Assembly (NCBI GenBank): GCA_017465225.1
Contig: JAFTWQ010000040.1
Location: forward strand, 1-40,011
Source: Bacteroidales bacterium
GTDB lineage: Bacteria; Bacteroidota; Bacteroidia; Bacteroidales; UBA932
Direction of reading: 5' to 3'
Length of the DNA stretch: 40,011 nt
The notes beneath the pieces were generated by a model. It saw only the letters and a list, made by a program, of their open reading frames with translations, did not search any database and was not told the DNA's origin. Position 1 is the first letter of the stretch, and each line of letters starts with the position of its first letter. The position numbers and the translations under genes were made by a program. Shown one piece after another: positions 25,158 through 39,850 of this stretch.

Positions 25158-26198
25158 ATGGCTAAAGTCATTACTTTCGGCGAGATCATGCTCCGCCTTT
25201 CAACACCTGGATATCTCAGATTTTCACAGGCCAGGCAGTTTGAGGCCACTTTCGGTGGCGGTGAGGCCAATGTGGCCGTTTCTCTTGCAAACTACGGAAT
25301 AGAAACTGAATTCGTGACAAGACTTCCGAAGAACGACATTGCAGCAAGCTGCATCAAGGATCTCAGAAGTTACGGCGTAGGAACCAAGCATTGTGTCTAC
25401 GGAGGCGACCGTCTCGGAATCTATTTCCTTGAGACCGGTGCCGTGGCTCGTCCGAGCAAGGTTGTCTACGACAGGGCATACTCTTCGATCGCGCAGATCG
25501 AGAAGGGAATGATCGACTGGGAGAAGGTTTTCGAGGGAGCGGACTGGTTCCATTGGACAGGTATCACTCCTGCCATCAGCCAGGGTGCTGCCGACGTTTG
25601 TCTTGAGGCTATCAAGGCTGCAAACAGACTCGGTGTGACTGTTTCATGCGACCTCAATTACAGGAAGAATCTCTGGAAATACGGAAAGACAGCATCTGAC
25701 GTGATGCCAGAACTCGTTGAAGGCTGCGACGTCATCCTTGGTAACGAGGAGGATGCAGAGAAGGTATTCGGCATCAAGCCGGAGGGCTTTGACGTGACTG
25801 CCACAAAGGGTGAGGTGAATGCCGCTGAATTCGAGAGCGTATGCAGACAGCTCATGGACAGATTCCCACGTGCGAAGAAGGTGATCATCACTCTCCGTGG
25901 ATCGATCAACGCCAACCACAACACATGGGGCGGAGTCCTTTACAGCGACGGCAAGCTCTATCAGTCTCCAAGATATGACATCACTCATATCGTTGACCGT
26001 GTCGGCGGCGGCGACTCATTCATGGGCGGTCTCATCTATGGACTTCTCACATATACCGGTGATGATCAGAAGGCACTCAATTTCGCAGTAGCGGCATCAT
26101 GCCTCAAGCATACCATCTTCGGTGACTTCAATCAGGTGACAGTCGCTGAGGTTGAAAACCTCATGAAGGGCGACGGTTCAGGACGTGTATCCCGTTAA
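25158..26198 (+). CDS. kdgK: 2-keto-3-deoxygluconate kinase (PfkB family)
   Basis: The 346-residue sugar kinase phosphorylates 2-keto-3-deoxygluconate (KDG) to KDPG in the cytoplasm. PfkB features are the N-terminal GGGEANVAVSLANYGI (residues 34-49), the YRKNLW and GNEEDAEKVF segments, and the ATP/anion-hole signature DRVGGGDSFMGGL near residue 280 with the catalytic aspartate. The family includes fructokinases, but adjacency to eda (nine-base gap), and to kduD and kduI on the other strand, makes KDG the likely substrate. It is first in a two-gene operon. Confidence 0.9.
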   Translation: MAKVITFGEIMLRLSTPGYLRFSQARQFEATFGGGEANVAVSLANYGIETEFVTRLPKNDIAASCIKDLRSYGVGTKHCVYGGDRLGIYFLETGAVARPSKVVYDRAYSSIAQIEKGMIDWEKVFEGADWFHWTGITPAISQGAADVCLEAIKAANRLGVTVSCDLNYRKNLWKYGKTASDVMPELVEGCDVILGNEEDAEKVFGIKPEGFDVTATKGEVNAAEFESVCRQLMDRFPRAKKVIITLRGSINANHNTWGGVLYSDGKLYQSPRYDITHIVDRVGGGDSFMGGLIYGLLTYTGDDQKALNFAVAASCLKHTIFGDFNQVTVAEVENLMKGDGSGRVSR

Positions 26199-26207
26199 TT
26201 GATCAAT

Positions 26208-26873
26208 ATGGCAAAATACAGCAAACTACAGGTAATAGCAGCGATGAAGGAGACCGGAATGGTCCCTGTATTCTATAACGCCGACATCGAGACATCAAAG
26301 GCCGTCCTCAAGGCATGCTATGACGGTGGCGTACGTGCATTCGAATTCACCAACCGAGGAGATTTCGCGCAGGAAGTATTCGGCGAGCTCGTGAAATATG
26401 CCAACAAGGAGCTTCCAGGCATGATCATGGGTATCGGATCGGTAGTGGATCCGGCTACTGCCGCACTTTATCTCCAGCTTGGAGCCAACTTCGTTGTAGG
26501 CCCTCTGTTCAACCCTGAAATCGCTCCGGTCTGCAACCGTCGTCTTGTGCCTTATTGCCCTGGCTGCGGAACAGTTTCAGAGGTAGGAAAGGCTCAGGAA
26601 CTCGGCTGTGACCTCTGCAAGGTATTCCCTGGAGATGTCCTTGGCCCTGCATTCGTCAAAGGACTTCGTGCTCCGATGCCATGGAGTCAGATCATGGTGA
26701 CAGGAGGCGTTAAGCCTACAAAAGAGAATCTCGAAGGCTGGTTCAAGGCAGGTGTGACATGCGTCGGAATGGGCAGCAACCTCTTCCCGAAGGAAGCTAT
26801 CGCCGCCAAAGACTGGGATGCCATCACCAAGCTCTGCAAAGATGCCCTGGATATCATCAGAGAAGTACGATAA
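26208..26873 (+). CDS. eda: KDPG / 4-hydroxy-2-oxoglutarate aldolase
   Basis: The 221-residue class I aldolase splits KDPG into pyruvate and glyceraldehyde-3-phosphate. It shows the small TIM-barrel sequence of Eda: the base glutamate in RAFEFTNRG (near 43), the Schiff-base lysine in LCKVFPGD (near 140) and the phosphate loop MVTGGVKPT. Start 26208 (MAKYSKL) is chosen; a TTG nine bases earlier, right after the kdgK stop, is less likely. It ends at a bidirectional terminator shared with kduI. Confidence 0.93.
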
Positions 26874-26906: not shown

Positions 26907-27848
26907 TTATCTCATTTCAGTGTAAGGTATCTCATCCTTATCACCATAATTCAGATTCTCACCGCCCATTCCCCAGATGAACATATAGTTGCTGGTTCCT
27001 GCCGCTGCGTGGATTGACCACTCTGGTGAGGTGATGGCCTGCTCGTTCTGCATCCATACGAGGCGCTGCTGCTTAGGCTCGCCCATGAGGTGGCAGATCG
27101 CGTTGCCCGGAGTCACGTTGAAGTAGAAGTATGCTTCCATGCGGCGTGTGTGGGTATGAGCCGGCATTGTGTTCCATACAGAGCCAGGAAGGAGCTCGGT
27201 GAGACCCATCTGGAGCTGGTTTGTTCCGCCTCCCTTCTTCTTGCCGAGAACAGAGCTTACGATGAGCTGGTTCACGATACGGTCGTTGCTGTCCTCCATC
27301 TTTCCATAGTGGTCAGACTGTGCGATCGCATACTTCTTAGGGTCTGCGTTCTTGTCAGTTGTGATGAGCTGAGTCACATACTCCTTGTATGCAGGGGTAG
27401 AGTTGATGTAGAACTTTGCAGGGTTTGCAGGGTCTACACTTCTGAAAGTGACTTCCTTCTTGCCGCAGCCCACATAGAGGCCTTCCTTGAATGACATAGA
27501 ATACTCCTTGCCGTCAACTGTCACGACTCCGTCGCCACCGACATTGATCACGCCAAGTTCACGTCTGTCGAGGAAGTGCTCAGCCTTGAGCTCGTCGAAA
27601 GTCTCGAGAACGAGTGTCTGGTTCACAGGCATGACGCCGCCGTAGATGAGACGGTCATAAAGTGTGTAAGTGAGATTGATCTCGTCAGGAGACATAACCT
27701 TCTCCATAAGGAACGCTCCACGGAGACGCTCTGTGTCATAATGCTTTACGTCATCAGGATGACAAGCTGTCTGAACAGTGTAGTTGAGCTGTGCGTTTGC
27801 TGCCATTGTCATAAGACTCATTAATGTGAATAAAACTATTTTCTTCAT
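26907..27848 (-). CDS. kduI: 5-dehydro-4-deoxy-D-glucuronate isomerase with signal peptide
   Basis: KduI converts 4-deoxy-5-ketouronate (DKI), released from unsaturated uronic acids, to 3-deoxy-D-glycero-2,5-hexodiulosonate (DKII). The mature part matches KduI over its whole length: [20 protein letters not shown], the cupin with [13 protein letters not shown] (zinc ligands H, H, E), and the closing [22 protein letters not shown]. The 313-residue protein is about 35 residues longer than E. coli KduI. Its first 20 residues (MKKIVLFTL, a hydrophobic core, then AANAQ) form a convincing Sec signal peptide, so the enzyme is probably periplasmic. Classical KduI is cytoplasmic. The ATG follows the EIIC stop by seven bases. 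Confidence 0.92.
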
Positions 27849-27855
27849 GATATTT

Positions 27856-29268
27856 TTATTGATTATTTTCTGTTGTGTCATTATCTGCGGTCCTCTGGTA
27901 TCTGATGATTGCCCTGCGGTTCAGGAACATAAGGAACATGGTCAGAAGGACGAGGACGGTCACGCCGATCCATTTGAGCGAGTAAGAAAGGTGGAAGATC
28001 ACCCATGCGAGCGGGCTTGACGCGAAGTCGAGCGAACCGCCGTCAAAACCGGCTGGAATGGCCACTGCAGCATCTCCGGTCTTCGCGAACACATCCTGCG
28101 CCGCCTGTGTGAAGAACGGAGCAAGGTCAGTCACGAAGTAGAGTCCGATGAGCATCAGCACAAGGCCGATGATGAATGTCTTCGGGATGTTGCCCTTTGT
28201 GATAGGGAGGATCAGCGGGAATACATAGAACATTCCAGCGAGCGAAGCAAGCGGAAGGAACTCGTTGCCCGGAAGCACTACTGCAAGGATGAGGGTCACA
28301 GGGATGAGAAGGAGTGACACCACGAGAGTAGCAGGGTGTCCGATCACAAGTGCCGGGCTCATGCCGATGTTGAGACCCTTGGCTCCCTTGAATTTCCTGT
28401 TGATAAGGTCACGTGTTGCGTCTGAGATAGGCTTCAGACCCTCGATGAAGAGTGAAGTGATGCGAGGAATGAGCTCCATCACGGCTCCCATCTTGATGCC
28501 GAGTCCGAGGATGTACGGAATCTTCTCCACAACCTCTTTCCAGCTGTCGCATGAGAGAGCTCCGATGATGATGCCGACGAGGACACCAAGAAAGAGGGGC
28601 TCTCCGAGGAGACCGAATTTCTTCTTCATGCCTTCGGCATCAATGTCCAGCTTGTTGATGCCCGGGATCTTGTCCAGTCCCTTGTTCAGAACTTCCGCAA
28701 CGGGTACGAAACCCTGGCAGAATGGCTGAGGAATGGAAATGCCGTCCATCTTCTCATAGAATCCCTGGAACCGGTCTGCAGTATAGTCCGCGAGGATCAG
28801 GGTGATGATATAGCAGATGATAGCTGCAAAGAACCCCCACCATATGTTGCCAGATGCGAAATATACGATGGCGCCGATGAAGGCGAAATGCCAGTAGTTC
28901 CAGAGGTCGATGTTCACGGTCCTTGTGGTCTTTGTAACGAGCATGAGGATGTTCACGCCCAGACATACCGGGATGATGAAAGCTCCTACTGAAGTGTTAT
29001 ATGCCACAGAAGCCGCTGCGGGCCATCCCATGTCGAATACCTTGAGCTGAAGACCATATATCTCCACAACTCTTGTAAGTGCAGGTCCGAGAGTGGTGGT
29101 AAGAAGGGAAGTGATGACTGAAAGTCCCACAAATCCGACTCCCACCAGAAGGCCGCTCTTGAGTGCCTTGCCGAACTTGATGCCGATGCAGACGCCAAGA
29201 ATCGTGAAGATTATAGGCATCATCACGGCAGCGCCAAGTCCTATGATATAACTGAATACCTGTTCCAT
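27856..29268 (-). CDS. Orphan galactitol-type PTS EIIC permease
   Basis: The 470-residue membrane protein matches the EIIC-GAT family along its length. Compared with E. coli GatC it keeps [12 protein letters not shown], the [11 protein letters not shown] segment (GatC WNIWHMTFTGA), [10 protein letters not shown] and [12 protein letters not shown]. About ten to twelve hydrophobic segments are seen. EIIC proteins normally need EIIA, EIIB, HPr and EI; none is encoded here, and Bacteroidales usually lack a sugar PTS. The permease may thus import without phosphorylation, as suggested for other orphan EIICs. It sits between kduD (two-base gap) and kduI, so the cargo is probably an unsaturated-uronate intermediate such as DKI or DKII, which is inference. 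Confidence 0.9.
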
Positions 29269-29270
29269 GA

Positions 29271-30065
29271 TTATTTAGGCTGCTTTCCGATGTACGCGAG
29301 AATACCACCGTCCACATAAAGTACGTGGCCGTTCACAAAGTCTGATGCACTTGAAGCGAGGAATATCACTGGTCCCATAAGGTCCTCCGGTGTTCCCCAA
29401 CGCTCTGCTGGAGTCTTTGCGACGATGAATGAGTCGAACGGATGGCGGCTGCCGTCTGCCTGACGCTCACGAAGAGGTGCTGTCTGCGGAGTAGCGATGT
29501 ATCCTGGTCCGATGCCGTTGCACTGGATGTTGTACTGGCCGTATTCAGATGCGATGTTTCTTGTGAGCATCTTGAGGCCACCTTTTGCTGCTGCATATGC
29601 AGAAACAGTCTCGCGGCCGAGCTCAGACATCATAGAGCATACATTGATGATCTTACCGGCCTTCTTCTCCATCATTCCCGGAAGAACGGCCTTTGCGCAG
29701 ATATAAGGAGCGACAAGGTCGATGTCCACCACCTGACGGAATTCCTCTGCTGCCATCTCGTGCATAGGGATGCGCTTGATGATGCCGGCATTGTTCACGA
29801 GGATGTCAACAGGACCGAGAGTCGCAGCGATGTCGGCAACCATTGCCTTCACACCTTCCTCATCAGTACAGTCGCAGATATATCCCTTCGCATCGATTCC
29901 AAGCTCCTTGTAAGCTTCGAGAGCCTTGTCCATATTTGCCTGTGTGCGGCAGTTGAATGCAATCTTTGCTCCAGCCTCGGCAAGAGCCTGGGCCATTGCG
30001 AATCCGATTCCGTAAGCAGCTCCGGTTACGAGAGCCACCTTACCTTCCAATGAAAAATTTACCAT
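29271..30065 (-). CDS. kduD: 2-dehydro-3-deoxy-D-gluconate 5-dehydrogenase
   Basis: The 264-residue short-chain dehydrogenase reduces DKII to KDG with NAD(P)H in the cytoplasm. SDR features are TGAAYGIG (residues about 13-20), NNAGII, the catalytic serine in the VCSMMSELG strand, the YAAAK pair and the closing GHVLYVDGG. Start 30065 (MVNFSLEGK) is preferred because TATTTTTG at 30094-30087 (minus strand) lies inside the longer frame. It is the first of kduD, EIIC, kduI. The gene upstream (GH43) ends 33 bases away, so read-through from it is also possible. Confidence 0.92.
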   Translation of the reverse strand: MVNFSLEGKVALVTGAAYGIGFAMAQALAEAGAKIAFNCRTQANMDKALEAYKELGIDAKGYICDCTDEEGVKAMVADIAATLGPVDILVNNAGIIKRIPMHEMAAEEFRQVVDIDLVAPYICAKAVLPGMMEKKAGKIINVCSMMSELGRETVSAYAAAKGGLKMLTRNIASEYGQYNIQCNGIGPGYIATPQTAPLRERQADGSRHPFDSFIVAKTPAERWGTPEDLMGPVIFLASSASDFVNGHVLYVDGGILAYIGKQPK

Positions 30066-30098: not shown

Positions 30099-31916
30099 TT
30101 ATTCAGTTACTTTGATCCAGTCGACCTGCACCCATCCGCTGTCGTTCTTCGAGGCCTGGCGGTTGCAGAAGAAGCCGAATTTCGCTCCGATCCATTTGCC
30201 CGGCTTTCCGATGAACGGCTTATCAGTAAGCTCGGTCCATCTCTTTCCGTCAAGGCTGTACCAGAATCTAGCTGTGAGATCCGGAACATTGCCTTTCCTG
30301 TCTTCCGGCATTACTTTCATCCTTACATAAACATCCGAAGCCATATAGGCAACAGGGGAGACAGAAGGAACTGTCGTCGACATATATGAATTTGAATAAG
30401 GTACCGGAAGCGGCTCTGATGAAAGCGGAACGGTCCTGATTATGTTTTCCTGTTTTCCTTTCAGCGCATCTTCACACTCGGCATACTGCAGCACGACTCC
30501 CTCGGAAGTGTCAGTCATCTTTATGACCGCATAATCCTGTCCCATCAGCACGAAACCGCATGATTCTCCTTTCTCCTTCAATTGCGGATTAGGAATGAAA
30601 CGGAGCTTGGCAGTAACAGTGAACTTGTCCGCCGGAGTCTTCTGAAGCAGAAGATTCGGAGAGTCACCGAGATTGCGCCATCCTTCAGCCTGATCTACGG
30701 AATAAAGCCTCAATGCACTGTTTCGGGCGTCAAGGAAATACCAGTATGGCGAAGGGATTCCATGCCATTGCCATTGCAGGCCAAGATTGACATTGTCGAA
30801 GCCGTCGCTTTCTGCAGGCTGAAATGTACCGGAAGACTTCAAAGACGGTTTTCTGTATTTTGATACCGGTTCGCCGACTCCGTCACCATCCTTATCGACG
30901 CCGATCACAGGCCATCCGTCCGCCGTCCACTCCATCGGCTGGAGATGCACGACACGTCCATATGCATCCTTGTCCTGGAAATGCATGAACCAATGCTCTC
31001 CGTCAGGTGTGTCGATCCATGCTCCCTGATGAGGCCCGTTCGTCTCAGAAGCACCCTGCGCCATCACCACGCGCTCCTCATATGGTCCCCATGGACTTTT
31101 CGACCTCAATACGACCTGCCATCCGGTAGGGACTCCACCGGCAGGGGAGAATATGTAATAGTCGCCATTGTGTTTATAGAACTTGGTGCCCTCGATGGTA
31201 GGCTGGGTCTCATGTCCGTCATATACGATACGGCTCTGTCCGAGCAGACGGGTGCCGTCCGGAGACATCGGTGCCACAAACAGCACGCTCTTGTGACCGG
31301 CACGGCTGCCTGCGCAGCCATGGGAGAGATATGCCTTTCCATCCTCATCCCACAATGGACATGGATCTATATATCCTTTAGCTTTCACGACCCATACCGG
31401 ATCATCCCATTTCCCGCGTGGGTCAGAGGTCTTTACCATGAAGATTCCTCTGTCCGGATCGCCGCAGTATATGTAGAATTCTCCGTCATGATATCGGATT
31501 GCCGGAGCCCACACGCCATTTCCATGCTGGGGGACTGTGCGCCATTCCTGCGGGCCTGGAGGAGGAACGGAAGGAGTGTCAAGTCTTTGCCCGAGAGTCT
31601 CCCATTGTCTTTCGTCAGACCAGTCAGGACCTGGGTAATCGGTCAGAGCTGCACCTATGATCTCCCAATTGACAAGGTCTGTCGAATGAAGGATCTGTAG
31701 CCCAGGAAAACATGCGAAAGAAGATGAAGTCATGTAGAAGTCATCTCCGACCCGGCAGATATCCGGATCAGAATAGTCCGCATTCAATACCGGATTTACA
31801 TAATGAGTGCCTTTGTCCGGATTCCAGCTTGACGAGATCTGTTGGGCAGAAAGGCCAGGCTGGACAGCGGCAAAGGCAATCAGAATCGAGAGAATATGTT
31901 TTCCTTTATGGTTCAT
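30099..31916 (-). CDS. GH43 family glycoside hydrolase, secreted
   Basis: The 605-residue protein has a signal peptide (residues 1-24, ending GLSAQ) and a five-bladed GH43 propeller. The general base is in DYSDPDICRVGDDFYMTSSS (near 48), the transition-state aspartate is in GYIDPCPLW, and the acid is in PTIEGTKFY. Residues about 390-605 form the C-terminal concanavalin-type sandwich seen in beta-xylosidase/arabinofuranosidase-like GH43s. There is an insertion rich in proline near residue 115. It probably removes xylose, arabinose or galactose side chains, so that lyase products can be processed by the kdu pathway, which is inference. TATATTTG at 31945-31938 marks its promoter. Confidence 0.92.
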   Translation of the reverse strand: MNHKGKHILSILIAFAAVQPGLSAQQISSSWNPDKGTHYVNPVLNADYSDPDICRVGDDFYMTSSSFACFPGLQILHSTDLVNWEIIGAALTDYPGPDWSDERQWETLGQRLDTPSVPPPGPQEWRTVPQHGNGVWAPAIRYHDGEFYIYCGDPDRGIFMVKTSDPRGKWDDPVWVVKAKGYIDPCPLWDEDGKAYLSHGCAGSRAGHKSVLFVAPMSPDGTRLLGQSRIVYDGHETQPTIEGTKFYKHNGDYYIFSPAGGVPTGWQVVLRSKSPWGPYEERVVMAQGASETNGPHQGAWIDTPDGEHWFMHFQDKDAYGRVVHLQPMEWTADGWPVIGVDKDGDGVGEPVSKYRKPSLKSSGTFQPAESDGFDNVNLGLQWQWHGIPSPYWYFLDARNSALRLYSVDQAEGWRNLGDSPNLLLQKTPADKFTVTAKLRFIPNPQLKEKGESCGFVLMGQDYAVIKMTDTSEGVVLQYAECEDALKGKQENIIRTVPLSSEPLPVPYSNSYMSTTVPSVSPVAYMASDVYVRMKVMPEDRKGNVPDLTARFWYSLDGKRWTELTDKPFIGKPGKWIGAKFGFFCNRQASKNDSGWVQVDWIKVTE

Positions 31917-34436: not shown

Positions 34437-36101
34437 ATGCAGAAACCTATCATATATCAGATGCTCCCACGTCTTTGGGGCAACAGCAATGAATCTCCGG
34501 TAAAGGGAGGAACCTTATCAGAAAACGGGACAGGAAAATTTTCGGACATAGATACTGCGACACTCGAATACCTCAAATGGCTCGGATGCAGCCATGTATG
34601 GTTCACCGGTATCCTTCGTCATTCCACACAGACATCCGAGGCCGGATGCATTCCTTCTCACCCGCAGTTCGTGAAAGGTAATGCAGGCTCGCCGTATGCG
34701 ATCTGCGATTATTATGATGTGAATGCATACCTCGCTGACGATCCGGACAAAAGGATGGAGGAATTCGAGGCACTGATAAAGAGAAGCCACGACGCCGGTC
34801 TCAAGGTGATCATGGACTTTGTGCCGAACCATGTGTCCCGCGATTACGGTAAGGTAAATCCGTCAAAAGGACATCCTGTACTTGGTGCGGAGGATGACAG
34901 GAGCGTCCATTGGAGACCGGAGAACGACTTCTTCTATTATCCCGGACAGCGACTTACCCTGCCATCTCCGGTTGCTGCCGGATATGAGCCATACGAGGAG
35001 TTCCCGGCCATGGCTACAGGAAACAACTGCTATAACGCCAATCCAGGTGTGAACGACTGGTATGAGACCGTGAAGATCAATTATGGTGACGATCATACGC
35101 CGACATGGGACAAGATGTATGACATCATTGATTTCTGGGCGTCCAAGGGCGTAGATGGCTTCAGATGCGATATGGTGGAGCTTGTGCCGAAGTCATTCAT
35201 GAAATGGATGATCGCCAAGGCAAAGGCTGCGCACCCTTCAGTCATCTTCATTGCCGAGGTATATAAAAAGGAAGAATACAACGAATACATCAGGTCGGTC
35301 GGATTTGACTACCTCTATGACAAGTCGGGCCTGTATGACACCCTGAAGTCAATCGTCGACAAGAGTGTGAATGACAACGGAATGCCTGTGGAGCTCTGGC
35401 AGTCGACATCAGGAATCACTAGAAACTGGCAGTTCCTCAGCGACATCCAGCCTTACATGCTCAATTTCCTCGAGAATCACGACGAGCAGCGCTTCGCATC
35501 GGAATTCTTCGGAGGTGATGCGATGAAGACACTGGCTCCGCTGTATGTCTCGCTTTTCCTTAACACCGCTCCGTTCATGATCTATTTCGGTGAGGAAGTC
35601 GGCGAAAAGGGCATGGACCATGAAGGATTCAGCGGCAGAGACGGCCGTACAACCATCTTCGACTGGTGGAGCGTTGCGTCAGTCCGCAGACTCCGTAAGA
35701 TGATTTCATCCGGAGCATACAAGACATTGGATGCCGGCAAGATCGCCATGGCTGGTCTTGAAAGGGGAGAGGCGGAACTCTTCTGCAGATTCGCCGAAGC
35801 CATCAGGACAGCAGCAGCTGACGAGGCTGTACGCAAAGGCTCGACATATGATCTCTGCTACTGCAACATGTCATCCGACGGATTCGACAAGAACAGGCAT
35901 TTCGCTTTCCTGCGTGATTATGAAGAACATACATTGCTGATTGCAACGAATTTCTCACAGTACGAGGCAAAGATGAAACTCGTCATTCCGGAACATGCCT
36001 TTGACTGGATGGGAATCCCTGTGACGGAAGACCTGCATCCAGGCAAGACAATCGAAGTGACCGTGCCTCCGATGGACGGAGTAATCGTCAGTTTGATTTG
36101 A
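34437..36101 (+). CDS. Cytoplasmic GH13 alpha-amylase-like enzyme
   Basis: The 554-residue protein has no signal peptide and so should act in the cytoplasm on alpha-glucan or maltodextrin. The GH13 regions are DFVPNH (127-132), GFRCDMVEL with nucleophile D245, FIAEVY with acid/base E274 and ENHD with H348 and D349. It opens directly with the barrel (IIYQMLPRLWGNSN) and ends with a beta domain. Start 34437 is the first ATG after the promoter; the earlier in-frame ATG at 34404 lies within it. It is distinct from the secreted AmyE-like enzyme at 13440. Its 3' end overlaps the convergent gene by 14 bases. Confidence 0.9.
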   Translation: MQKPIIYQMLPRLWGNSNESPVKGGTLSENGTGKFSDIDTATLEYLKWLGCSHVWFTGILRHSTQTSEAGCIPSHPQFVKGNAGSPYAICDYYDVNAYLADDPDKRMEEFEALIKRSHDAGLKVIMDFVPNHVSRDYGKVNPSKGHPVLGAEDDRSVHWRPENDFFYYPGQRLTLPSPVAAGYEPYEEFPAMATGNNCYNANPGVNDWYETVKINYGDDHTPTWDKMYDIIDFWASKGVDGFRCDMVELVPKSFMKWMIAKAKAAHPSVIFIAEVYKKEEYNEYIRSVGFDYLYDKSGLYDTLKSIVDKSVNDNGMPVELWQSTSGITRNWQFLSDIQPYMLNFLENHDEQRFASEFFGGDAMKTLAPLYVSLFLNTAPFMIYFGEEVGEKGMDHEGFSGRDGRTTIFDWWSVASVRRLRKMISSGAYKTLDAGKIAMAGLERGEAELFCRFAEAIRTAAADEAVRKGSTYDLCYCNMSSDGFDKNRHFAFLRDYEEHTLLIATNFSQYEAKMKLVIPEHAFDWMGIPVTEDLHPGKTIEVTVPPMDGVIVSLI

Positions 36102-39084
36102 ATCCGTAGCCTATGACCGCTTCATTCGAGGATCGGTCTATATATCCCTCCATTCCTTCCGGTGCCTTGTAAAGCCTTGTATATGTGCCTTTTGACACGC
36201 ATTCAAGGCCGGCAATGGCGTCTTCGTCGATAAATCCGTCCTTGCGTACGGTGTCGATGGTAAGATATCCGACTCCAAGCGAAGTGATGTTCTGGAAGAA
36301 ATGAGTACCTTGGCTCGGCTCGATCTGATAGCCCGGAATCGCGCTTTCCACAATCATCCTGGCCTCTGAAATCTCACTCCACATGACAGGGATTCCAAGC
36401 CATGGGTCAGACGATCCCCATCGTCCCGGTCCGATGAGAAGATAAGAGCCACCCTCATTCTTGACCATATTGTTGAATTCAGCTATCTCCTGCGCCATTT
36501 CCTTGGTCCTTGCGCTGTCAAATATGTCTGAAGGGACATGGATGATATGTGTTATGCCTTCCGATCTGCCAGATCCCAGTGCCTTTGATGACCTCACAAG
36601 CACATGCGACATTTCCTCGCATACCTTGTCTATAGAGAAGCTTGAATCAGAGCTGTATTCTCCTACCGGCCTTACCTGCAGGAGCTTCATGTTCATTCTT
36701 GTACCTCCGTCCTTCTGCTCCAGGTCAGCAGCGAACTCCATCTCAATGTCGCACATGAGTTCATTCCTGCATATCTCGAGAAGATCCTTGATGATCTGCG
36801 CGAGAGGGTAGCGGCCATATTTGAGAAGAGCGTCGAATGAAATGATGCGTGGACCACGGGCCGTGATGCCCGGTACCATCCTGTTGTTCTCAAGGCTGAA
36901 CGTAGACGCGACCATCTCCGGATATGTATATTGAGGAAGTACATCCGCAATCTGCACATGTGCGAGATTGACTCCCTCATTCTTGGATATCTTGAAAGAT
37001 CCCGGCCTCAGGTCAAGGGCATACATCATCTTCTGCGTATCCCTCAAGGCTAGCTTCGGCTCGGAAAGCTGAAGTATCTTCTTCGGGAATTTCGGGCTGA
37101 ATCTCAATGAGTTGCCTCCGTCTACAACCGTCTTTCCCAGACCGAATGCCAGATCTACGATGCCGTCTTCCGGCTTCTCATTGCCGATAGGGTAGAAATT
37201 GACCGAACGTGCGACTCCGGAAAGCATCGGATAATAAAGCCCTTCATGTTCGGAGCCGCAGATGCTCTGCACGACAACGGCCATCTTTTCCTCGCTCAAG
37301 AGGTTGCCGGTAGTCTGTATATATGCCCTGCTGCCGCTGTAGAAAACCGAAGCATAGACACTCTTGATGGCCTTTCCAAGCATTCGCAGCATCTGGTCCC
37401 TGTTCTCCGCAAGCGGAATCATGTAGGTAGAATAAACGCCCGCAAACGGCTGGTAGCTGCTGTCCTCAAGCTTCGAGCTTGAACGAACGGCAAGAGGGGA
37501 GCGGGTGGTCTCGAGGAAGGCCCTGAGCTCCTCCACCAATGGCTCCGGCAGACGCGAGGAGACAAACTCCGAAAGGATCTCATCATCCGAAATGTCAGAG
37601 TCTATGACATACTGAAGGTCATTCTCTATGATGAACTGATCGAAATAATCAGTAGCGATCACGACAGTACGTGGGATGGATATCTTTACATTCTCATATC
37701 TGTCCGCGAGATGATGCTTGTATACCAGGCTGTTAAGGAAAGCCAGGCCACGTGCCTTTCCTCCGAGGGATCCGTCTCCCATACGTGAGAACCATATATG
37801 CCTTCCGTAGCTTTCAGCATCGAAATGAGCGATGACACCTCGTCCCATAAGTGCATGATAATCATGTATCTGCTGGGATACATACGCCCTGAGCTCGGCA
37901 GTGCTGGAGAACTGGCTCTCGAGCACTTTCTTGAACTTGACGCCAAGCGTGAAAAGACCACGGGCCATGAACCATTTCGAGAGCATGTTCTTTGATGTGT
38001 TCGCCAGAAGGATCTCGTCCGGGATGTCCCTCATGAGCAGCTCCAGCTCCTTCAGATTCGCCGCCCTGCCATATTCGATACGGTTTGCGTCCCTGAAGAC
38101 AAATTCACCGAAAGCGAACTCTTCCTTGATATAGTCATAGAGCTGGATCATCAGCGTCTTTGAATACTTCCTCAAAAAGCCGACTCCCATTTCCTCCGCG
38201 ACTTCAGCTATGGATTCCTGCGAAGACTGCAGCAGTACAGGCATCATAGGATCGTCTGCCTTGATATGACGGACTAGATCAAGTCCTGCATCAAGCTTCT
38301 CCATTTCAGGCGACTCACCTCGATGTGCACAGAATCCCACATCCGAAATGACACCGAGAAGGTTTGACTTGTACTTTTCATACATGTACATCGCATCATC
38401 CAGATTGGTCGCAAGAAGAATCTTCGGACGCGATCTCTTCATATGCTTCCTCTGCTGCTCGTTCAAGGTTTCCTTCAGGAATTCGGCACTCTGACGAAGG
38501 ACCATACGGTATAGCTCGGGAAGATATGTGGAATAATATCTTACGGAGTCTTCGACGAGCAGAATGCTCTGCACACCGACCCTCAGGATGTCGTTTTCGG
38601 CATTCTTGAGATCCTCGAACAGCTTGATTATGGCTACGATGAGGTCTGCATTACCATGCCAGCTGAACATGTAGTCCACTGCCGAGGTATCGAGTGCCGC
38701 CAGCCTCCTGTACACTTCTTTGGAGAAATGGGTAAGCAATACGAACGGAAGGCTTCTTCCTTCCTTCTTCAGCTCTGAAGCCAAGGTAAAGACATCATTG
38801 TCTCCGGCATTGTACATGCAGATTATCATATCGATACCGACAGTCGTCTGAAGCATCTCGCGAGCCTCGGCAGAAGTCTGCACCCACAGGAATTTAGGCG
38901 GCGTACTCAGGTTCAGGTCGATGTATTCCTTGTAGATCCGTGTCTCGATCTGACCGTCCTCTTCAAGGATGAAAGCGTCATAGTTGCTGCATATCATGAG
39001 GATTCTTCTTACTCGGAATCCCATGAGTGAATCATAGTCTGCATTGATAAGCTCCTTAAGAAGCTTTGGCTCAAGTGTATTCAT
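36088..39084 (-). CDS. PEP/pyruvate-binding protein with receiver-like N-terminal domains
   Basis: The 998-residue protein starts with two receiver-like folds (about residues 25-150 and 172-330; the second starts SILLVEDSVRYYS). It then has the pyruvate-phosphate-dikinase N-terminal ATP-grasp region (GSLGGKARGLAFL near 440, RSSSKLEDSSYQPFAGVYST near 535 and LLQVRPVGEY near 790) and a C-terminal region with GPGRWGSSDPWLG. The phosphohistidine swivel domain and the PEP-binding barrel of true PPDK or PEP synthase are not present. Proteins of this plan recur in Bacteroidota, with unknown substrate. Start 39084 (MNTLEPK) is preferred over 39123, which overlaps the RNA methyltransferase gene. It follows that gene by ten bases and is likely co-transcribed. 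Confidence 0.85.
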   Translation of the reverse strand: MNTLEPKLLKELINADYDSLMGFRVRRILMICSNYDAFILEEDGQIETRIYKEYIDLNLSTPPKFLWVQTSAEAREMLQTTVGIDMIICMYNAGDNDVFTLASELKKEGRSLPFVLLTHFSKEVYRRLAALDTSAVDYMFSWHGNADLIVAIIKLFEDLKNAENDILRVGVQSILLVEDSVRYYSTYLPELYRMVLRQSAEFLKETLNEQQRKHMKRSRPKILLATNLDDAMYMYEKYKSNLLGVISDVGFCAHRGESPEMEKLDAGLDLVRHIKADDPMMPVLLQSSQESIAEVAEEMGVGFLRKYSKTLMIQLYDYIKEEFAFGEFVFRDANRIEYGRAANLKELELLMRDIPDEILLANTSKNMLSKWFMARGLFTLGVKFKKVLESQFSSTAELRAYVSQQIHDYHALMGRGVIAHFDAESYGRHIWFSRMGDGSLGGKARGLAFLNSLVYKHHLADRYENVKISIPRTVVIATDYFDQFIIENDLQYVIDSDISDDEILSEFVSSRLPEPLVEELRAFLETTRSPLAVRSSSKLEDSSYQPFAGVYSTYMIPLAENRDQMLRMLGKAIKSVYASVFYSGSRAYIQTTGNLLSEEKMAVVVQSICGSEHEGLYYPMLSGVARSVNFYPIGNEKPEDGIVDLAFGLGKTVVDGGNSLRFSPKFPKKILQLSEPKLALRDTQKMMYALDLRPGSFKISKNEGVNLAHVQIADVLPQYTYPEMVASTFSLENNRMVPGITARGPRIISFDALLKYGRYPLAQIIKDLLEICRNELMCDIEMEFAADLEQKDGGTRMNMKLLQVRPVGEYSSDSSFSIDKVCEEMSHVLVRSSKALGSGRSEGITHIIHVPSDIFDSARTKEMAQEIAEFNNMVKNEGGSYLLIGPGRWGSSDPWLGIPVMWSEISEARMIVESAIPGYQIEPSQGTHFFQNITSLGVGYLTIDTVRKDGFIDEDAIAGLECVSKGTYTRLYKAPEGMEGYIDRSSNEAVIGYGFKSN

Positions 39085-39094
39085 ATGTCGGGGA

Positions 39095-39850
39095 TCAATA
39101 TGTTCTTCTTCTGAATTCTGCAACAGTCACGGCGGTTGCAACCGCTGCGTTCAACGACTCCGAACCAGGGTCATCCGCAGGATATGGAGGGATATACAAT
39201 CTGTCGGAAACAAGGGCTGCCATCGCGTCCGAAATGCCCTCTGATTCATTTCCGATCACGATGACCGCAGGTTTGTCCTTGCCGGTCTCAAGCGGCTGGG
39301 AATACATGTTCCTGCCGTCCAGGAATGTCCCATAGACCTTTCCGCCAGCCGCAAGCACTTCCTTTGTCAATGATGGAAGATCCACATAGTGCATCTTTAC
39401 ACGGAATATCGCACCCATGGTCGACTGCACGACCTTGGGATTGAAGACGTCAACGGTATCCTTGGCTGCAAACACGGCATCGATACCGAACCAGTCGGCG
39501 ATCCTGAGGATCGTGCCGAGATTGCCAGGGTCACGGATAGTATCCAGAGCAAGGAAAAGGCCTCCTGAAGCAAAGAGTCCTGACAATGAAGCCGGTTCGT
39601 CAATATATATGTCCTCCGGCTTTCTGACTACTGCCAGGACAGGAGAAGGGGATGCCAGCGATGATATTCTTTTCATAGCCTCCTCGCCGATCTCATCCCT
39701 CTGATACACCGCTTCAACGGCAAAATGAGACTTACGGGCCTCTTCAACCATCTTTTCCCCTTCCACTACAAACAGTCCGGATTCATCCCTGAACTTCTTC
39801 TGCTGCAGGGACTTTACCCTCTTTATCTCATTGTTTGATATAGATGCCAT
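39095..39850 (-). CDS. TrmH/SpoU-family RNA methyltransferase
   Basis: The 251-residue SPOUT methyltransferase puts a methyl group from S-adenosylmethionine on a ribose 2'-OH of rRNA or tRNA. An N-terminal substrate-binding domain (ISNNEIKRVKSLQQKKFRDE, FVVEGEKMV) is followed by the knotted domain with the three SPOUT motifs: LDTIRDPGNLGTILRIADWFG (asparagine and arginine key), VIVIGNESEGI and IPPYPADDPGSESLNAAVA. The target nucleotide cannot be given. Start 39850 (MASISNNEI) follows TAAGTTTG at 39880-39873. The PEP-binding gene follows ten bases downstream. Confidence 0.92.
   Translation of the reverse strand: MASISNNEIKRVKSLQQKKFRDESGLFVVEGEKMVEEARKSHFAVEAVYQRDEIGEEAMKRISSLASPSPVLAVVRKPEDIYIDEPASLSGLFASGGLFLALDTIRDPGNLGTILRIADWFGIDAVFAAKDTVDVFNPKVVQSTMGAIFRVKMHYVDLPSLTKEVLAAGGKVYGTFLDGRNMYSQPLETGKDKPAVIVIGNESEGISDAMAALVSDRLYIPPYPADDPGSESLNAAVATAVTVAEFRRRTY

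Follow-up and report, generated by a model that had tools for sequence, protein, structure and literature searches.

Results

Organization of the EIIC-KduI locus

The window, by which we denote the whole 40,011 nucleotide stretch of Bacteroidales DNA analysed (contig JAFTWQ010000040.1), encodes on its reverse strand a 470 aa EIIC-GAT-like integral membrane protein (27856..29268), assigned by its matches to PF03611 and PDB entry 9u82 and by its clade in a phylogenetic tree. It is preceded on the same strand by an SDR reductase of the KduD/DhuD type (29271..30065; PRK07097, TIGR01832) and, further upstream and in the same direction, by a GH43 glycosidase identified with Pfam (30099..31916). It is followed, again on the reverse strand, by KduI, the 5-dehydro-4-deoxy-glucuronate isomerase (26907..27848), which scores 367.8 bits against NF002091 (cut-off 250) and carries an N-terminal signal peptide. 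The reductase ends at 29271 and the KduI ATG is located at 27848, confirming the spacing of 2 bases between reductase and EIIC and of 7 bases between EIIC and KduI given in the first-pass annotation. Convergent to this group, on the forward strand, are genes for a 2-keto-3-deoxygluconate kinase-like PfkB kinase (25158..26198; Pfam PfkB) and a KDPG aldolase (26199..26873; Pfam Aldolase, with PRK07114 above its cut-off).

The window EIIC had been annotated as a full-length member of the EIIC-GAT family and this assignment is upheld, PF03611 matching residues 7-391 with 271 bits (cut-off 24.2, E 2.4e-80). The only PDB match at E <= 1 is 9u82, 'PTS galactitol transporter subunit IIC' (E 2.6e-79, 281 bits), while the match to TIGR00827, the NCBIfam model for galactitol IIC, reaches 388.7 bits, under the curated cut-off of 542.2. 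Identity to 18 PTS-linked EIIC-GAT proteins ranges from 26 to 46%.

The reductase scores 479 bits against PRK07097, a model named gluconate 5-dehydrogenase (cut-off 369), and 225.2 bits against the TIGR01832 kduD model, below the cut-off of 338.85; its N-terminus, MVNFSLEGK, is without a signal peptide. It is expected, from its family, to reduce DK-II (3-deoxy-D-glycero-2,5-hexodiulosonate) to 2-keto-3-deoxygluconate. The profile result would fit the hybrid kduI-dhuD clusters of Bacteroidota described in the accessible text of PMC12838403, with DhuD membership being only putative. For the kinase, models of KDG kinases and of a KDPG aldolase/sugar kinase fusion are among the best NCBIfam matches, none of which reaches its cut-off. 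A Pfam scan of 20 window ORFs gave no unsaturated-uronyl hydrolase. Elsewhere in the window, the 1011-aa product of positions 36088-39123 contains a PPDK_N domain (ATP-binding, PEP-synthase-like) and weakly matches a response regulator; a PEP-utiliser C-terminal domain is not among its Pfam matches.

The KduI partner of EIIC carries a signal peptide

The N-terminus of the window KduI reads as a Sec-type signal peptide (27792..27848, reverse strand), both by inspection of the sequence and by an in-house rule (ATG start, Lys/Arg in the first 8 residues, hydrophobic core, A-x-A-like site), with cleavage expected before Gln20. The window KduI thus possesses the n-region Lys/Arg, core and A-x-A-like site of a putative Sec signal, and in this it departs from the signal-peptide-free state of 75/75 control KduI proteins. 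This predicted signal peptide on the partner isomerase is the key fact that the first-pass annotation missed, and from it we propose a periplasmic location for KduI.

The feature is not peculiar to the window. Among the 85 EIIC loci whose KduI segment is 150 aa or longer, the EIIC-linked KduI carries a signal peptide by rule in 84; in the 85th (L022) the KduI gene is split and its N-terminal piece bears a signal peptide. Two later sets of loci gave 28/28 and 19/19 (47/47; 43 by rule and 4, L247, L252, L253 and L258, which failed the rule, by eye). None of the 75 controls, taken from genomes of the same draw without EIIC-GAT above cut-off, has one. The control set takes in every near-full-length KduI match except the ones from G000 and G230, and excludes a partial match of 199 bits together with matches below 60 bits; among the control genomes, G031 shows a weak EIIC-GAT match that stays below the cut-off. 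Second KduI copies in EIIC genomes are similarly devoid of a signal peptide (0/12; the second copy of L018 and L204-L214), the L018 copy being negative only if an ATG start is required and positive if GTG/TTG starts are allowed. With the first version of the rule, which allowed GTG/TTG starts, 95/96 EIIC-locus segments, duplicate loci included, were positive and 0/75 controls; the ATG-only rule applied to 90 distinct loci gave 84/86 segments and again 0/75 controls, the two negatives being the second KduI of L018 and, in L022, the C-terminal part of the split gene. Two loci that end at or within EIIC (L242, L259) lie outside the signal-peptide counts and inside the 134 residue rows analysed below.

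A profile search of 52 EIIC genomes detected one KduI in 38, two in 12, a broken gene in one and none in one; in 38/52 the KduI bearing the signal peptide is the only KduI found. A KduI without a signal peptide was therefore not found in most of these 52 genomes, in a search that was for KduI and not for the unrelated isomerase DhuI; the accessible text of PMC12838403 records no dhuD-dhuI cluster in Bacteroidota. A single KduI match was obtained in the window genome. In G619, one of the 38, EIIC is present without an adjoining KduI, and the sole KduI, located elsewhere (L215), also has a signal peptide. The second KduI of L018 (13158-16124) is situated beside a probable uxuA (mannonate dehydratase, named by eye) and an SDR gene, and is possibly a hexuronate isomerase. 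P. vulgatus and B. xylanisolvens each possess an additional kduI lacking the signal peptide; P. plebeius (L053) has a single copy.

Distribution and conservation of gene order

EIIC-GAT above cut-off is present in 2/296 evenly drawn Bacteroidota genomes, in 9/299 genomes of the window's own family and in 87/251 genomes of another Bacteroidales family, where it is found in 73 of the 152 of good quality. Named carriers are P. vulgatus, P. massiliensis, B. xylanisolvens, B. finegoldii, B. faecis, B. heparinolyticus and Paraprevotella clara. A record titled Paenibacillus (L037) contains Bacteroidales-type EIIC, KduD and KduI and is probably a misnamed MAG.

Gene order was compared in 90 loci (the window plus L012-L100). 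The pairing of EIIC-GAT with kduI noted in the window is kept across Bacteroidales: KduI lies downstream of EIIC on the same strand in 85/90 loci, directly behind it in most, which excludes chance adjacency. Of these 85 genes, 82 are full ORFs, 74 within 400 bases of EIIC and 8 at 1.7-3.1 kb, and three are cut by a contig end (L034, L072, L089). The remaining five loci comprise two that end shortly after EIIC (L041 just past EIIC, L077 past EIIC-KdgK), one with a gltD-like ORF, named by eye, in place of KduI (L061) and two with no KduI nearby (L049, L087); the L087 genome has EIIC and no KduI match, and is possibly an incomplete MAG. Within 7 kb of EIIC, a reductase occurs in 47/90 loci, a kinase in 34 and an aldolase in 29, with all three plus KduI in 25. 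Compact KdgK/KduD/KdgA/EIIC/KduI cassettes are found in L261-L263.

Profile matches in the P. vulgatus locus (L021) identify an MFS permease downstream and, on the opposite side, a pectinesterase together with a GH88-family hydrolase. The B. xylanisolvens locus (L073) contains one pectinesterase by profile and similar ORFs by eye, and the GH88-type ORFs of L021, L073 and L025 have signal-peptide-like N-termini, again by eye. In several loci a lipoprotein-like gene of the DUF4861 (BT3233) family, absent from the window operon, is inserted between reductase and EIIC, for example in L098 (10692-11873, Pfam), L016 (7785-8993, NCBIfam) and L060 (7648-8925, by position only).

PTS partner genes

The first-pass annotation reported that the window lacks EIIA, EIIB, HPr and EI, and a Pfam scan of 20 window ORFs agrees. 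Extending the profile search to the window genome, EI (PF05524), HPr (PF00381), IIB (PF02302) and EIIA_2 (PF00359) were not found; this genome is only 78% complete and the relatives therefore bear the weight of the argument. All four families were likewise not found in 8/9 EIIC-bearing relatives at >=94% completeness, giving 9/10 genomes when the window genome is included. A further 43 genomes, corresponding to 43 of the 80 named loci, were searched for EI, IIB and KduI, and EI and IIB were not found in 42 of them. Overall, EI and IIB were not found in 51/53 EIIC-bearing genomes, most of which are drafts, while the HPr and EIIA searches covered 10 genomes only. The 51 include records titled complete, P. 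vulgatus ATCC 8482 (L021) and B. xylanisolvens XB1A (L073). The same searches were positive in 7 (EI), 7 (HPr), 6 (IIB) and 7 (EIIA_2) of 14 named control genomes, which include E. coli.

The two exceptions, G572 and G631 (L076), each encode a mannitol-type IICBA fusion scoring above its cut-off. HPr and EI directly follow the mannitol IICBA in G572, one of the 10 genomes searched for HPr; in G631, searched for EI and IIB, EI lies ~5.5 kb from it on the same contig. In both, EIIC-KduI is on a different contig from the mannitol IICBA. The assertion that Bacteroidales generally do without a sugar PTS thus holds in this sample, save for these two mannitol-PTS genomes. The mannitol IICBA sites (G572 contig C4 80568-81822, L101; L178 1057-2826) are unusual for this sample.

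Two positions of the putative active site are changed

Alignment of 134 Bacteroidales EIIC rows with the 18 PTS-linked EIIC-GAT proteins revealed one column that is conserved in at least 17/18 PTS-linked rows yet lost in the Bacteroidales clade. This is position 304 (codon 28357..28359, reverse strand, in the window), Asp in 18/18 PTS-linked proteins and Ser (130) or Thr (4) in 134/134 clade members. Position 181 (codon 28726..28728, reverse strand) is His (13) or Thr (5) in the PTS-linked proteins and Gln in all 134 clade members. The first-pass annotation had missed these changes. The PTS-linked panel is plasmid-borne and was hand-chosen from match lists, with two rows being near-copies (L188, L196), and the residue counts omit six loci at extraction by start motif (L030, L070, L072, L079, L082, L084).

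Profile alignment to the ascorbate transporter UlaA places window Ser304 at Asp314, Gln181 at His194 and position 80 at Thr86, residues which are ascorbate contacts according to the accessible text of PMC6048161, where mutation of UlaA contacts to Ala or Ser is described as crippling or abolishing binding. The comparison is a remote one (E 5.8e-5 with all rows, 1.3e-6 with PTS-linked rows); positions 80, 181 and 304 map alike in both alignments whereas the TM4a ligands do not, and 8/11 UlaA ligands are alignable, three falling in gaps. Three of nine mapped clade-specific positions coincide with the eight mapped UlaA contact positions (hypergeometric p 0.001, calculated post hoc).

Four EIICs from outside Bacteroidota that have no neighbouring EIIA/B retain Asp304, and loss of this residue is therefore not needed for PTS independence. 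From this comparison, the change may reflect a new substrate rather than the loss of the PTS itself. It is not accounted for by anion binding alone, because UlaA carries an anion and retains Asp314. A further residue, Glu265, was considered as a mark of PTS-independent EIICs following a first count of 85/85 clade members, 0/15 PTS-linked proteins and 2/2 orphans, and was rejected: the PTS-linked L199 has Glu and the orphan L202 has Thr.

The KduI signal peptide and EIIC linkage arose once

KduI trees constructed with the signal-peptide part removed give the exported form a single origin and one reversal, in the second KduI of L018, a copy that does not adjoin EIIC. Exported KduI sequences were thinned for these trees to about half, or to a fifth with some distant controls omitted. 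Independent gains of the signal peptide had been suspected from the cytosolic-looking KduI of L247, L253, L254 and L261-L263 and were discounted, the tree giving one gain and one loss. KduI core identity to the window protein falls to ~51%.

The EIIC tree, with clade rows thinned to every third, places the Bacteroidales proteins on one side of a branch with support of 100/100, among PTS-linked EIICs; their neighbours are PTS-linked EIICs of Salmonella, Lactobacillus gasseri and C. difficile plasmids, with long branches leaving the exact sister unsure. The pair of traits, KduI signal peptide and EIIC linkage, thus arose once, and the large locus counts are consequently not independent: they represent a single evolutionary event, conserved over a long time, and one loss. 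The 134 clade rows form 107 clusters at 98% identity and 33/49 later rows fall in clusters of their own, some later loci being near-copies of earlier ones. An independent-pairs test comprised 3 pairs only and has no power.

EIIC-GAT genes without adjoining EIIA/B also occur on Enterococcus/Enterobacter plasmids (L193 3477-4913, L194 3489-4910, L200 3501-4916), where the neighbours are ribokinase, ribulose-phosphate epimerase and a LacI regulator and the nearest PTS-linked relative in the panel is L199. Judging from these neighbours, this group may also work independently of the PTS, fed by a soluble kinase. On a Levilactobacillus brevis plasmid (L202 3501-4952), an EIIC-GAT gene with no EIIA/B nearby adjoins an amidohydrolase; its branch is very long.

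Discussion

The first-pass annotation suggested that a PTS permease had been repurposed to import unsaturated-uronate intermediates. The genomic pattern that it named as contrary evidence, EI, HPr and EIIA/B-GAT genes elsewhere in the genome with conserved co-occurrence, was looked for and did not emerge. With EI and IIB not found in 51/53 genomes and kduI adjacency conserved, this remains the best genomic reading of the locus, and the predicted export of KduI narrows the cargo to the KduI product, DK-II. We consider it probable that an EIIC of galactitol-type PTS descent works without a PTS and imports, unphosphorylated, the DK-II made by exported KduI, with cytosolic enzymes acting as the trap. 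DHU would be released in the periplasm, by an upstream hydrolase step that we infer, and there be isomerised to DK-II by the co-encoded, exported KduI. The EIIC elevator protein would move DK-II through the inner membrane in unphosphorylated form, a cytosolic KduD/DhuD-type reductase would convert it to 2-keto-3-deoxygluconate, and KDG kinase and KDPG aldolase would consume this product. The combination of reduction and kinase action would thereby substitute for PTS phosphorylation. This pathway accounts for the signal peptide on KduI, the order of the genes, the PTS components that were not found and the altered pocket. In regard to energetics, we favour facilitated diffusion rather than ion-coupled transport by EIIC.

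The same genes could be read as serving saturated hexuronates, exported KduI acting on galacturonate/glucuronate and EIIC importing tagaturonate/fructuronate, or EIIC could import DHU itself with KduI only balancing the pool. The accessible part of PMC3578941 reports activity of E. coli KduI on galacturonate and glucuronate, and the L018 KduI without an ATG-started signal peptide adjoins the probable uxuA identified by eye. However, the genes neighbouring EIIC-KduI are an SDR reductase, a KDG kinase-like gene and a KDPG aldolase, and in P. vulgatus the MFS permease adjoining KduI (best model TIGR00893, galactonate transporter, under its cut-off) could serve saturated hexuronates, so that we regard these alternatives as unlikely. 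Alternatively, operon and cargo could be as proposed here while EIIC functions as an H+ or Na+ secondary active symporter and not as a facilitator. Many elevator-fold transporters are ion-coupled. The sole candidate coupling residue examined, Glu265, is however not specific to EIICs without EIIA/B, and PTS-independent transport by a galactitol-type EIIC has been reported as facilitated diffusion: the accessible text of PMC10989795 describes such a protein moving xylose unphosphorylated in ptsI-deleted E. coli and deduces this mechanism. A symporter therefore seems to us quite improbable.

That EIIC still operates within a PTS whose phosphodonors were missed or are very diverged is an explanation to which we attach hardly any weight. 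The genomes are mostly drafts, that of the window being 78% complete, and HPr and EIIA were sought in 10 genomes; against this, EI and IIB were not found in 51/53 genomes by searches that were positive in 7 and 6 of 14 controls, respectively, and the panel-invariant Asp is lost in the clade. Continued PTS function is thus already largely refuted.

Our preferred reading, import of unphosphorylated DK-II, can be compared with four known systems. Galactitol PTS EIIC (GatC, PF03611, TIGR00827, TC 4.A.5; 9u82) and the window protein are one family over their whole length; here, in contrast, the TIGR00827 cut-off is missed, the panel-invariant Asp is Ser/Thr, a KduI with a signal peptide adjoins, and the PTS partners were not found (EI and IIB in 51/53 genomes, EIIA_2 and HPr in 9/10). 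UlaA, the ascorbate PTS EIIC, belongs with it to a common AG superfamily according to the accessible text of PMC6048161, yet the UlaA family has His194 and Asp314 in 6/6 rows where Gln and Ser are found here. The cytosolic kduI-kduD and kduI-dhuD clusters covered by the accessible text of PMC12838403 have the same isomerase family, reductase superfamily and expected chemistry, DHU to DK-II to 2-keto-3-deoxygluconate, whereas here the signal peptide of KduI would place it and the reductase on opposite sides of the membrane. Neither 'signal peptide' nor the abbreviation 'PTS' occurs in that text, in which the phosphotransferase system is named only for disaccharide import. In the case of xylose entry through E. 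coli GatC S184L and EcolC_1642 N13S, described in the accessible text of PMC10989795, EIIC-GAT also moves a sugar without phosphorylation, but as an adaptive side activity of a complete PTS and not, as here, in a conserved clade without PTS parts and with pathway genes of its own.

Literature searches on KduI/EIIC in Bacteroides, with subscription papers mostly outside their coverage, gave no result that names EIIC beside KduI or an exported KduI together with a PTS-free EIIC, and the main text of PMC4769552 has no mention of PTS, galactitol or kdu. What would be new is the arrangement, an exported KduI together with a PTS-free EIIC, the component families being already known.

On balance we lean towards the broader view that a large Bacteroidales lineage combines periplasmic DHU-to-DK-II isomerisation with an ex-PTS permease as dedicated DK-II importer, reduction and ATP-dependent phosphorylation replacing phosphotransfer. 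If this is true, the clade represents a PTS EIIC that is uncoupled by nature, is conserved and has an altered active site, a natural single-clade case of a PTS permease that lost phosphorylation coupling, with two candidate residues in a family with a solved structure. In these genomes, the label 'PTS galactitol transporter subunit IIC' need not imply galactitol or a PTS. The pathway would explain how pectin-derived unsaturated uronates pass the inner membrane in common gut Bacteroidales, including P. vulgatus, B. xylanisolvens, B. finegoldii and their relatives.
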